Positions 37,358 through 42,361 of a stretch of 42,401 nt of DNA are shown here, piece by piece. The translations under genes and the position numbers were made by a program. This DNA comes from Thermoflexus hugenholtzii JAD2. Lineage in GTDB: Bacteria; Chloroflexota; Chloroflexia; Chloroflexales; Roseiflexaceae. The stretch is from positions 1-42,401 of the forward strand of contig CAMCVW010000032.1 in NCBI GenBank assembly GCA_945881915.1, written 5' to 3'. The notes under the pieces were generated by a model that saw only the letters and a program-made list of their open reading frames with translations, ran no database searches and was not told the origin of the DNA. How positions within the stretch are numbered: position 1 is the stretch's first letter; each line of letters opens with the position of its first letter.

Positions 37358-37386
37358 TTGACACCCACCACGGTGACACCTATCAT
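37358..37386 (+). promoter_or_regulatory. Sigma70-type promoter of the envelope operon
   Basis: Consensus TTGACA (37358-37363), an exact 17-base spacer, and TATCAT (37381-37386). The transcript would begin near 37393, giving a leader of about 98 bases before the GTG at 37491, longer than other leaders in this window. Confidence 0.8.
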
Positions 37387-37490: not shown

Positions 37491-39536
37491 GTGCACCTAA
37501 TATCACTTCGGTCGCTCCTCAAAATGATTCCTTTGGCCGTGGCACTCTTATTCATCAGTGCATGTGGCAGTGAAGCAATCGCCCTCCGCGGAGTCGTCCG
37601 CGACGCATACACCGATGCCCCGATCCCTTCGGCAATCATCCAAGTCGGTTCGAGTAAAACTATGTCGGACGCACAGGGCGCCTACAGTGTAGATCAGTGG
37701 CTCCGTCGACAAACGCTGACGATCACCATGAGCGACTACGAAGCAAAGTCCATAGATTTGAGTAAACAAAAATTCCCCCAGACGCTGACCGCTGCCGATA
37801 CGGTCGTCGATGTGGTCCTACGCCCGAACGTCATCCGTGGCATGGTCGTCGATGCGTGGAGCAAACAGCCGTTGGCTGGTGTCCTCATTCAGGCAGGCAC
37901 GACGTTGTCGACCACCACAGGCCCAGATGGTTCTTACAGCATCACTGAGGTGCCGGAATCATTTGCCCTCCAGGTGCAGCTTGCTGACTATGTGACGCAG
38001 TCTCAGCAGATAGAGAAAAGAACCACTGCAGATATTGCACTCATCAACAGCACCCTGAGCGGGATCGTCAAGGACCAATACAGCGGGCAGGGGCTGGCAG
38101 GGGTAAAGGTAAGTGCCGGTGATATCACTGCAGTGACCGATGTCGCTGGAGCATTTGCGATCAAAAACGTCACCGCACGAACCGCAGTCACATTCGCAGT
38201 CGAAGGCTACGCCCTCGCGACTGTCGATGCAGCGACGACTGCCACACTCGATGTCGTCATGCGCCCTGACACCTTGAAGGGAACGCTGGTCGATGCGACA
38301 ACCGAAAAACCGATTCGGCATGCAACGATTATCGCGACCGAAGCGCTCGACAAATCCGCTTCGGGAACGGTGCGAATCGATGGCACCGACGGTGTCTTTA
38401 CCCTCAGTGGGATGCCGGCATCTGGCTTCATTCAAGTGCTCGCTCCGGGTTACCGCAAGTTGGTTGTCCCCATCGTCCAAGGCGAAATACCGGCAGTCAT
38501 GAAGCTCGAACCGTTCGAACCAAAAGCGGTCTACATCACCGCCGCAGTTGCGTCTAATCCACGACTCATCACGAAGTTTTTCGACCAAATCGAAGCCACC
38601 GAACTCAACGCCATCGTCATTGACCTGAAGTCAGACCTGCGCGACGATCTCGGCTTGATCTACTACGATTCACAAGTACCCATCGTTCGGGAATTAGGGA
38701 CGTATAGTGCAAATTACGACATTCACGCTATTCTCGCCGAAGCCAAAAAGCGCAATATTTATACCATTGCGCGAGTACACATGTTTAGCCACGATAATGT
38801 TTTGGCAGAAGCAAAACCAGAATGGGCTGCGCGAGATCTTCTCAAAGGCGGAATTTTCTACGATTATCCAACGTCGACCATCAAATACGCATGGCTCGAC
38901 CCATTCAACGAGAACGTCTGGGATTACAACATCGCGCTCTCTGTCGAAGCAGCTTCGTATGGCTTTGATGAGATTAATTTCGACTACATTCGTTTCCCAT
39001 CACTAGAATTTGGCCCGTCTGATGGCGAACGGCTCGGATTTTCCAAAGAAGTAACATCTCCCGAAATACGCTACGACACCATCAAAGCTGTCCTCAACCG
39101 GGCACAACCCGCCATCAACGCGGCAGGTGCGTTTCTCTCGGTAGATGTCTTTGGATTCACCACCGAAAGCCCCATCGATATCATCGGTCAGAGCTTACCC
39201 ATGATGGCGCAGACGACCGACTACATCTGCCCCATGGTCTATCCATCTCACTATGGGCTAGGCTATCTGGGCTTTGATAATCCCGCCAATCACCCCTATG
39301 ATGTCATCTTCCGTACCATGGAAATGGGTGCCAAACAGATAGGTGATAGTCGCGCGCGCCTGCGTCCTTGGCTCCAGGACTTCACCCTCATCTGGGTGCC
39401 GGATGACCAAATCGTCCAATACGGTGCCCAAGAAGTGCGTGAACAGATTCGTGCAGTCGATGAAGCCGGTACGGGTGCTGGATGGATGTTGTACAGCTCA
39501 GACAACTCCTATACCTACAGCGCTTTGGGGCAATAG
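37491..39536 (+). CDS. Lipoprotein with four regulatory-like repeats and a DUF4015-type glycoside-hydrolase domain, 681 aa
   Basis: The signal peptide ends in a lipobox ISAC (Cys about 25), so the protein is exported and membrane-anchored. Four carboxypeptidase-regulatory-like beta domains follow, starting near residues 32, 115, 190 and 262; each begins with L-x-G-x-V-x-D and has a D-x-x-G-x-Y/F-x-I/L turn. The C-terminal ~335 residues are a TIM-barrel domain of the DUF4015 putative glycoside hydrolase type, with FDEINFDYIRFPSLEF, LSVDVFGF, CPMVYPSHY and GWMLYSS. It probably acts on a cell-surface or extracellular polysaccharide. The start is GTG at 37491 with weak AGAAAG upstream; ATG at 37524 would remove part of the signal. 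It is the first gene of an operon with 39558 and 40652. Confidence 0.88.
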   Translation: MHLISLRSLLKMIPLAVALLFISACGSEAIALRGVVRDAYTDAPIPSAIIQVGSSKTMSDAQGAYSVDQWLRRQTLTITMSDYEAKSIDLSKQKFPQTLTAADTVVDVVLRPNVIRGMVVDAWSKQPLAGVLIQAGTTLSTTTGPDGSYSITEVPESFALQVQLADYVTQSQQIEKRTTADIALINSTLSGIVKDQYSGQGLAGVKVSAGDITAVTDVAGAFAIKNVTARTAVTFAVEGYALATVDAATTATLDVVMRPDTLKGTLVDATTEKPIRHATIIATEALDKSASGTVRIDGTDGVFTLSGMPASGFIQVLAPGYRKLVVPIVQGEIPAVMKLEPFEPKAVYITAAVASNPRLITKFFDQIEATELNAIVIDLKSDLRDDLGLIYYDSQVPIVRELGTYSANYDIHAILAEAKKRNIYTIARVHMFSHDNVLAEAKPEWAARDLLKGGIFYDYPTSTIKYAWLDPFNENVWDYNIALSVEAASYGFDEINFDYIRFPSLEFGPSDGERLGFSKEVTSPEIRYDTIKAVLNRAQPAINAAGAFLSVDVFGFTTESPIDIIGQSLPMMAQTTDYICPMVYPSHYGLGYLGFDNPANHPYDVIFRTMEMGAKQIGDSRARLRPWLQDFTLIWVPDDQIVQYGAQEVREQIRAVDEAGTGAGWMLYSSDNSYTYSALGQ

Positions 39537-39557: not shown

Positions 39558-40655
39558 ATGAACACTGCCCCGTCTAGTCATAGTTTCATCATCGGTTCAC
39601 GCTGGATTGGCGTATGCACGACGGCGCTGTTGCTACTCATGCAACAGCGCCCAGTCTCATCTTGGTGGGTCTGGTGCATTGCAGTAGGGATGAGTGCTGC
39701 GGTGACCATCGCTGTTCAGCCAGTGACGCGACTGTGTATCCGTCACCCGCTCCTGATGGGAATTGATATTGTCTGTGGTGCAGGGATGGTCGTTGTGACC
39801 GGAGGTTGGATCAGTCCCTTTTACCCCACGTTTGTCGCACTGCTGATGCTGCCTGCAATTCTCTATGGTATCCGCGGCGGAGTGATTGCAGGGTTCGCCA
39901 GCAGCACGTTGTGTGCCGTACTCTTTTTCTTGTATGGCATCTGGGATACCGAAGAAAGCCCTGCACTGCTTCATCGAATGCTATTTTTGGCAGCTCCGGT
40001 TGCGTTCGGAATGCTCTGTGCTGCTATTGCAGGATACACCCATAAATCACGCACGCACGAAAAGAGATTTACTGGAGTCTCTTCCGTCGAATTCCCGCAG
40101 TGGGTGGGCCGAGTGATGCGCCGTGTCGTCCCGCGATTCCCACGTGCGCTCACATCAATGCGATCTGCGCGGACAAACGGATTCCGAGTCACCCAGACGC
40201 GTTCTGCAGAAGTACGTCTGGCACTCTATGCTGCGCAACCACAAGATGTAACGCTCCCAGAAGAAGCACAATTACTCACGGATTCGTTTGAACGGACGAC
40301 ACATATTGCGGCGCGCTGTGTGATTCTCGGGCGACCGAAACCAATCCAATTGGTTCACTGCGACTCGATTCGGCGCCTCATCATCGAATCGCTCATCAAT
40401 GTAGAACAACACGCACAGGCCTCGAGTGTGTCGGTCCTGATACGATTCGATGATCGCACCGTCACCGTTGTTATCCAAGACGACGGGAATGGGCTTCCCG
40501 ATACGGGTATTCGTCGGGCAGGGCTTCATTCGTTGCAGATGTTAATCTATCGGGTGAGTGAAGTAGGCGGTCGACTCGAAGTATTCACCACGCCCGCGGG
40601 TGGAGTTGCGGTTCGCGCGGCGTTCCCACTGTCGGCGGAAGAGGTCATCGTATGA
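39558..40655 (+). CDS. Membrane protein with HATPase domain, kinase-like but lacking a visible DHp domain, 365 aa
   Basis: Four or five transmembrane helices lie in residues ~10-170 (including SWWVWCIAVGMSAAVTIAV and YPTFVALLMLPAILYGI). A ~90-residue linker and a C-terminal HATPase-like domain (about 265-365) follow. The N box ESLINVEQHAQA, G1 QDDGNGLPD and a G2-like AGLHSLQMLIYRVSEVGGRLEV resemble NarX/LiaS-type kinases. The expected HisKA_3 phosphoacceptor helix (E-R-x-R-I-A-R-E-L-H-D) before the ATPase domain is not present. It may therefore be a non-phosphorylating sensor or a kinase with another acceptor. GGGG precedes the ATG. Its stop overlaps the start of the PBP gene (ATGA). Confidence 0.83.
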   Translation: MNTAPSSHSFIIGSRWIGVCTTALLLLMQQRPVSSWWVWCIAVGMSAAVTIAVQPVTRLCIRHPLLMGIDIVCGAGMVVVTGGWISPFYPTFVALLMLPAILYGIRGGVIAGFASSTLCAVLFFLYGIWDTEESPALLHRMLFLAAPVAFGMLCAAIAGYTHKSRTHEKRFTGVSSVEFPQWVGRVMRRVVPRFPRALTSMRSARTNGFRVTQTRSAEVRLALYAAQPQDVTLPEEAQLLTDSFERTTHIAARCVILGRPKPIQLVHCDSIRRLIIESLINVEQHAQASSVSVLIRFDDRTVTVVIQDDGNGLPDTGIRRAGLHSLQMLIYRVSEVGGRLEVFTTPAGGVAVRAAFPLSAEEVIV

Positions 40656-42361
40656 CCAAGTTTATCCTCCATCGCATGGTCTTGTTTTTCACCGCCGGGA
40701 TGCTCATCTATGGGATGTCGCAACCTCCGGAGCGTGAATCGACCTGGCTGTGGTGCCTCTGGCTGGCAAGTATCCCAGCTGGCTATTTGGCGTTTAGCCA
40801 AATCCCACTCCGGCTACGCGTCAATACGATTCAACGTTCCCTCCAAGCACTGACGGTCATCATGGGCTTAGGGTTTGGCATGCTCTCACTCGAATTACTC
40901 CGACAACAAGTCATCTGGTCGCAGTATCTTGCAGATGCAGTGGCAGTCAATGCCGAATCGGGTGAAACGTCGAGCAATGTACGCCACGTCATGGCGGCCA
41001 ACCGCGTCCATCGCGGGAGCATGCGAGACCGCAACGGGACAATCATCGTCGACACGACCGTCGGCGCTGATGGACGAACCGCTCGGAGTTACCCAGTCGA
41101 TACCCCCGCAGCGTTTGCGCCGATTGTCGGGTTCGTCAGCCCACGCTACGGCGTTTCGGGGATTGAAGCAACCTATGCAGATTACCTCTCTGGTTCACGT
41201 AACCCGCTGGGCCAGATTTTTCGCATGTTTCGCCGCGACGCTGTTCGCGGTGACGATGTGGTGCTCACCATAGATGCGCAACTCCAACAAGCAGTCTATG
41301 CGTTTTTGGGTAATCGAGTCGGTTCGGTGGTTGTGCTCAATCCGCGCTCCGGTGCAATCCTCGCCATGGCGAGTTCACCGAGCTATGACCCGCGCGATAT
41401 GACTCCAGAGCTTGGTGCAGATCCCGTCGCTGATCAATTGCGACTCGATGCCGCATGGCAACGAATGCTCCAGAGTGATGCAAATGAACCGTTACTCAAT
41501 CGCGCCATCCAAGGACGATATCCACCAGGCTCGACCTTCAAAATTGTCACTGCTGCCGCTGTGCTCGAGCACGCTGGGATTGCCCAGCCCGACGACATTA
41601 CGTGCCCCGAAACATTCCAGAGCGAGCCGGGCGCACCCCCAGTCGTGAATGCAATACCAAATCTGAATGCCAAGACAGGGAACCCCGCCAGTCTGCGCAG
41701 TGTAGTGGCTTTTTCGTGTAATACGGCATTTGCCCAATACGCACTCCGACTCGGTGCAACACGGTTGGTATCGAGTGCAGAACGATTCGGTTTTGTGACT
41801 CCCGAAAAACAAAATGGTGCAGTGACCCTTTCGGACCTCCAGACGCTCAGTAGTCTGCTCTCTGTGGATGACGGATTCCTCGCTATCCCCGCAGCGATCG
41901 CCGACACGGGCTTTGGCCAGGGCCAGCTCTTGGTCACCCCACTGCAGATGGCACTCGTTGCCGCCACGATTGCCAATGACGGTGTGCTCATGCAACCGTA
42001 TGTGGTCGAGCGCGTCGTCAACCAACAAAACGCAGCTTTGTATAGCCACATCACCCGACCGATTCGCCGTGCGGTGAGTAGCCTCAACGCGATTCGCATA
42101 CGGGATTCTATGCGCTATGCCGTGACTGATGGTTTTGGCACGGCAGCCCAAAATCAGGGTGTCATCACCGTTGCCGGCAAATCCGGTACGGCAGAGAATC
42201 CAACCGGCATCCCGCACGCCTGGTTTATCGCCTACGCTCCTGCCGAAAATCCGCTCTATGCCGTCGCAGTCATGCTCGAGTATGGCGGAGAAGGCTCTAA
42301 TGCCGGTGCGACGTTGGCCGGGCAAGTCCTCGCAGCTGCCGCACAGACCGTACAACCCTAA
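40652..42361 (+). CDS. Class B penicillin-binding protein (peptidoglycan D,D-transpeptidase), 569 aa
   Basis: Cross-links peptidoglycan stem peptides outside the membrane. All three active-site motifs are present: the nucleophile Ser294-x-x-Lys297 in PPGSTFKIV, Ser355-Cys-Asn357 in FSCNTAFAQY, and Lys510-Ser-Gly in AGKSGTAENP. The preceding ~130 residues (AANRVHRGSMRDRNGTII) are the usual PBP dimerisation region. The N terminus has about three hydrophobic segments (near 8-22, 32-50 and 64-84), where most class B PBPs have one, which is unusual. The start overlaps the upstream gene by four bases (ATGA). The gene resembles PbpA/FtsI-like proteins of shape or division machinery, but no FtsW/RodA partner is in the window. 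Confidence 0.93.
   Translation: MTKFILHRMVLFFTAGMLIYGMSQPPERESTWLWCLWLASIPAGYLAFSQIPLRLRVNTIQRSLQALTVIMGLGFGMLSLELLRQQVIWSQYLADAVAVNAESGETSSNVRHVMAANRVHRGSMRDRNGTIIVDTTVGADGRTARSYPVDTPAAFAPIVGFVSPRYGVSGIEATYADYLSGSRNPLGQIFRMFRRDAVRGDDVVLTIDAQLQQAVYAFLGNRVGSVVVLNPRSGAILAMASSPSYDPRDMTPELGADPVADQLRLDAAWQRMLQSDANEPLLNRAIQGRYPPGSTFKIVTAAAVLEHAGIAQPDDITCPETFQSEPGAPPVVNAIPNLNAKTGNPASLRSVVAFSCNTAFAQYALRLGATRLVSSAERFGFVTPEKQNGAVTLSDLQTLSSLLSVDDGFLAIPAAIADTGFGQGQLLVTPLQMALVAATIANDGVLMQPYVVERVVNQQNAALYSHITRPIRRAVSSLNAIRIRDSMRYAVTDGFGTAAQNQGVITVAGKSGTAENPTGIPHAWFIAYAPAENPLYAVAVMLEYGGEGSNAGATLAGQVLAAAAQTVQP

Follow-up and report, generated by a model that had tools for sequence, protein, structure and literature searches.

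A degenerate histidine kinase of the Chloroflexales without a phosphoacceptor is usually encoded directly before a class B penicillin-binding protein in two families

The occurrence of a gene for a kinase-like membrane protein that runs straight into the gene of a penicillin-binding protein (PBP) raised the question of whether the protein still works as a histidine kinase and whether it controls the PBP. We analysed this locus in a stretch of 42,401 nucleotides, here called the window, from a Chloroflexales genome of 3.09 Mb whose kin are Roseiflexaceae MAGs from lakes. The first of the two genes (39558..40655, plus strand, stop within the coordinates) is an open reading frame of 365 amino acids with an ATG start, which Pfam, AlphaFold and fold and profile comparison identify as a pseudo-histidine kinase. 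The second (40652..42361, plus strand), likewise starting with ATG, encodes a PbpA-type class B PBP of 569 amino acids, as judged from its reading frame, Pfam and motifs; its 3' side is the window end, where the downstream context at this locus also ends. Reading of the sequence upheld the stop/start overlap described in an earlier note on this DNA, since the pseudokinase end, ...GTA TGA, encloses the PBP start, ATG ACC, in a 4-base ATGA (40652..40655, plus strand). The upstream neighbour, 21 bp 5' of the pseudokinase gene, encodes a lipoprotein-like protein in which CarboxypepD_reg repeats are combined with a putative glycosyl hydrolase domain, DUF4015 (37491..39536, plus strand; reading frame and Pfam); this gene order is kept among genus relatives, and two further Roseiflexaceae genomes carry the gene close to the locus. 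In agreement with the earlier note, no response-regulator-like gene was seen beside the pseudokinase among the window's reading frames and their Pfam matches. A promoter-like site 5' of the three genes (37358..37386, plus strand), TTGACA-17-TATCAT, is a consensus match only (11/12), and as five such sites were observed versus 3.7 expected in shuffles, it is not evidence of function.

The missing phosphoacceptor was examined in the window protein and 44 homologues. HisKA models of Pfam matched neither the window protein nor any homologue (0/44), while HATPase_c is present in 43 of the 44; with the same tool, a positive control, a Chloroflexota kinase with a related membrane domain and an adjoining response regulator gene, gave a HisKA_3 match at 2.4e-16. 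When aligned by HHalign to 38 intact HisKA_3 kinases, in which the ERxRIARxxHD helix occupies positions 1-24, the pseudokinase begins at template position 49 and has no counterpart of positions 1-48. A HisKA_3 search of the host genome found one kinase elsewhere and no match at the pseudokinase, and intact HisKA_3 kinases occur in most of the surveyed genomes, the window's own included. The histidine is absent in every homologue checked, in all four Chloroflexales families; its absence is thus a property of the family, not chance or misannotation. The earlier observation that no HisKA or HisKA_3 histidine is recognisable was borne out both by Pfam and by profile alignment, and a profile search for a DHp histidine, the result that could have overturned it, found none.

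The anatomy of the protein shows what stands in place of the lost helix. An AlphaFold model built on a 44-sequence alignment (mean pLDDT 83) contains confident membrane helices over residues 7-165, in keeping with the transmembrane helices noted earlier, and the alignment and the model together define a membrane domain (residues 1-165; 39558..40052, plus strand) that has five to six helices and invariant R15, W16, P64, D70 and P99. Next comes a disordered, fast-evolving linker at the place of the DHp helix pair (residues 166-208; 40053..40181, plus strand), followed by a helix which AlphaFold and profile alignment mark as a remnant of the end of DHp helix 2, 'AEVRLALYA' (residues 209-224; 40182..40229, plus strand), and by the catalytic/ATP-binding (CA) domain (residues 233-358; 40254..40631, plus strand), defined by Pfam, AlphaFold, fold match and profile alignment. 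It is scarcely credible that the protein is an ordinary sensor kinase whose histidine was missed through divergence or frameshift: the one short, weak helix that the model places in the linker, at residues 181-190, speaks for it, but no part of the protein is less conserved than the linker, which varies from 42 to 75 amino acids and has no conserved His column across the 44 homologues, the reading frames are open, the positive control was detected, and the profile and alignment tests already contradict this reading. A missed DHp is ruled out by Pfam in 44 members, by profile-profile alignment and by the structure model, and a pseudogene or frameshift by the open frames together with dN/dS well below 1. 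As to the membrane domain, whose fold was barely probed by the fold search because the matches were taken up by the CA domain, we found a related domain on GAF-HisKA_3 kinases with an adjoining response regulator and on GGDEF proteins of other Chloroflexota families (L105:5105-6874; L110:5476-7647); across Chloroflexota it serves as a general input module.

The CA domain reveals the ancestry of the protein. HATPase_c was matched at residues 270-359 with an E-value of 3.5e-6, above the curated cut-off, and the fold matches VraS (4gt8, Z 16.7, 2.4 A over 132 residues) and DesK (Z about 16). By sequence, the solved structures most similar to it are those of DosS/DosT and VraS; NarX, NarQ, LiaS and UhpB are matched as well. 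In the window protein we could assign the N box (E277/N281/H285), the G1 box (D308-D-G310-N-G312) and G349 of the G3 box, while the G2 glycine is replaced by S325. N281, H285, D308, G310 and G312 are identical in 44/44 homologues, and N281, D308, G310 and G312 stay invariant across all families of the order surveyed. In contrast, the G2 position is A, S or T in 43 of the 44; it is Gly in Herpetosiphonaceae-type members and Q or H in the remaining, fourth family. Measured against HisKA_3 (NarL-type) kinases, a CA domain with N and G1 boxes is present but the lid glycine of the G2 box is absent, so that the ATPase, which had been called intact-looking, is intact in its N and G1 boxes only. Since the N and G1 residues are invariant, ATP binding is likely.

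Retention of these boxes leaves room for kinase activity of another sort, as even without a DHp a CA domain could transfer phosphate to a partner in trans. Rhodobacter CheA4, which phosphorylates CheA3, is a precedent for such a split kinase, in which the CA domain would act on a histidine of a separate DHp or Hpt protein or of another kinase. The invariant boxes, a flexible linker that could let the CA domain reach a partner, and the intact HisKA_3 kinases of most genomes agree with this arrangement, but the G2 glycine is lost in nearly all homologues and no conserved DHp, Hpt or response regulator gene was seen in the conserved neighbourhoods, and we regard it as unlikely. We give slightly less credence still to a Ser/Thr protein kinase of the SpoIIAB/RsbW kind acting on a cytoplasmic partner: although HATPase_c_2, the Pfam family that covers RsbW-like ATPases, weakly matched 33 of the 44 members (best 6e-4), the best sequence and fold matches are CA domains of the HisKA_3 type, not RsbW, the G2 box is degenerate, and no STAS partner gene was seen in the conserved neighbourhoods. 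That the protein descends from a kinase and has lost its histidine is well supported.

Comparison across the order revealed that the decay is graded. Herpetosiphonaceae-type members align from kinase position 25, without the histidine but with the G2 glycine kept, and were modelled with a two-helix hairpin at moderate confidence; Roseiflexaceae and Chloroflexaceae members start at position 49 and almost all have A, S or T at G2, and those of the fourth family align from position 74 only. All degenerate members form one clade (100/94) versus the 38 canonical kinases in a tree on only 131 columns, and because they do so, a single loss of the histidine is consistent with the tree; convergent losses are countered by the same clade, though on only these columns. 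For close pairs (dS under about 1.3), more distant ones being saturated, dN/dS was about 0.06-0.12 in the CA domain, 0.04-0.19 in the membrane domain and 0.2-0.27 in the linker. The membrane and CA domains are under purifying selection, which is relaxed in the linker. The protein is thus a pseudo-histidine kinase in kind: derived from a histidine kinase, deprived of its phosphoacceptor and maintained by purifying selection.

Whether the PBP is its partner was addressed by a survey of 82 Chloroflexales genomes, in which the family was matched in 75 genomes at E <= 1e-26 and the PBP is present in 79; one genome, 91% complete, has the PBP and no detectable pseudokinase (L194:4072-5823). The pseudokinase gene lies directly before the PBP gene in 55 of 63 Roseiflexaceae- and Chloroflexaceae-type genomes (22/24 and 33/39, respectively), whereas the two genes are linked in 0/12 genomes of the other two families, in one of which the pseudokinase is near glycine-cleavage genes. 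One of the two Roseiflexaceae-type exceptions is a fragmented MAG without any PBP match. In the six Chloroflexaceae-type exceptions the pseudokinase is still present, away from the PBP, and such retention without linkage is found in four separate genera. The gap between the two genes in Chloroflexaceae is roughly 13-280 bp, and the ATGA coupling is local. Conserved adjacency to the PBP stands for most genomes of two families; homologues away from the PBP, which the earlier note named as a result that would refute its proposal, do occur, in six Chloroflexaceae-type genomes, in one Roseiflexaceae genome and in all 12 of the other two families. Because the pseudokinase lies elsewhere in these genomes, control of the PBP cannot be its ancestral or its only function, and direct control read from synteny alone is weakened by the unlinked families and the several separations.

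The PBP contains PBP_dimer_2 and transpeptidase domains by Pfam, with STFK at 294, SCN at 355 and KSG at 510; the presence of SxxK, SxN and KSG and the absence of a glycosyltransferase domain place it among class B PBPs of the PbpA type. At its N-terminus (window positions 40652-40910) there are three hydrophobic segments, a hairpin plus the usual anchor, and Herpetosiphon, which has its pseudokinase gene elsewhere, shares this three-segment form. The host encodes two further class B PBPs, each with a single main hydrophobic segment; by eye, one gene was placed in a dcw-type cluster and the other close to an mreB-like gene. SEDS genes are located elsewhere in the host genome. An S41 (tricorn/PDZ) peptidase gene lies 3' of the PBP gene in many genomes of all four families (L039:11848-13350; L063:12921-14255; L186:8481-9914), with an M20 peptidase gene between them in some, as in Herpetosiphon. 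From these arrangements the PBP-S41 pairing looks older and the pseudokinase looks to have joined later, as an addition to a cell-wall locus. In Chloroflexaceae, a gene for a DUF5656 membrane protein is often found 5' of the pseudokinase (e.g. L062:7411-8271), and because it stays there in three of the six genomes with the PBP elsewhere (L134:5006-5863; L154:4012-4932; L155:1534-2463), the DUF5656 protein may be a closer partner than the PBP.

The same distribution bears on the reading that the function is unrelated to the PBP, the two genes merely sharing a transcription unit and the ancestral role still being the sole one. The lack of linkage in 12 genomes, with glycine-cleavage genes as neighbours in one family, and the retention of the gene after separation in several lineages mean that the PBP link may be operon convenience and not physical interaction. 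Against this stand the gene order, which most genomes in two families keep with the genes overlapping or only a little apart, and the addition of the gene to an older cell-wall linkage, so that we consider the reading possible but rather doubtful.

We give about even credence to the explanation that the protein is an ancient pseudo-histidine kinase which probably serves envelope synthesis as a nucleotide-binding regulator or scaffold in the membrane. A membrane sensor kinase of the NarL family (HisKA_3 type) would have lost its phosphoacceptor histidine before the Chloroflexales families diverged; later, the Roseiflexaceae and Chloroflexaceae proteins would also have been stripped of the G2 glycine and of most of the DHp helix pair, the membrane domain and the nucleotide-binding-type CA domain meanwhile remaining under purifying selection. 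The membrane domain may sense an envelope signal, and the nucleotide-bound, flexibly tethered CA domain would bind a partner, the likeliest candidate in these two families being the adjacent envelope machinery, namely the PbpA-type PBP with its three TM segments and, in Chloroflexaceae, also the DUF5656 protein. Since the DHp and the G2 glycine are absent, the protein very probably neither autophosphorylates on histidine nor drives a response regulator, and a nucleotide-binding membrane regulator or scaffold working by protein contact is the best-supported mechanism. Direct control of the PBP, as the earlier note proposed, is plausible yet unproven because the linkage is neither universal nor ancestral. 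A further-reaching reading, in which an ATP-gated former kinase would touch a class B PBP and control it directly, with no response regulator between them, and so couple envelope sensing to peptidoglycan cross-linking free of phosphotransfer, we consider possible but rather doubtful.

Known systems offer partial parallels. In Actinobacteria, the PbpA-RodA-PknA/PknB-PstP cell-wall locus has an active Ser/Thr kinase as its regulator, accompanied by a phosphatase. By analogy only, the Chloroflexales locus likewise pairs a class B PBP of the PbpA type with a membrane protein that descends from a kinase, but its regulator would be a decayed histidine kinase, no phosphatase accompanies it and the SEDS genes lie elsewhere in the genome. 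The pseudokinase resembles HisKA_3/NarL-family kinases such as DesK, VraS, LiaS and NarX in the fold and sequence of its CA domain and in its polytopic membrane input domain, and differs from them in having no phosphoacceptor histidine or helix, no adjacent response regulator and no G2 glycine. DivL, whose core has been read as a sensor of a partner, is a precedent for a histidine kinase core reused without phosphotransfer; it keeps, however, the DHp, with Tyr replacing His, and all the other kinase boxes (PMC4211667). The pseudokinase instead has a disordered linker for the DHp and a gene linked to a PBP, and with a membrane domain, no DHp and no PAS match in Pfam it lacks the features of a DivL orthologue.

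In the open-licence literature we found no description of this family, nor of a protein derived from a histidine kinase that controls a PBP in Chloroflexota; the PBP link would be new, if physical. While known pseudo-histidine kinases such as DivL keep the DHp, the filamentous Chloroflexales, a whole order, present stages of a graded decay, from loss of the histidine with the helix pair kept to loss of the helix pair and the G2 glycine, with the nucleotide-binding residues invariant throughout, which makes the role of a CA domain after the loss of phosphotransfer directly testable. The conserved linkage of the gene to that of a cell-wall transpeptidase hints at a role in envelope control, and this in a phylum in which the peptidoglycan machinery has received little attention. 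Since the phosphate-accepting part has been lost, the nucleotide-binding residues have been kept and the PBP is usually adjacent in two families, our comparison suggests that a former sensor kinase has been reused in the Chloroflexales as a non-kinase regulator of the envelope.
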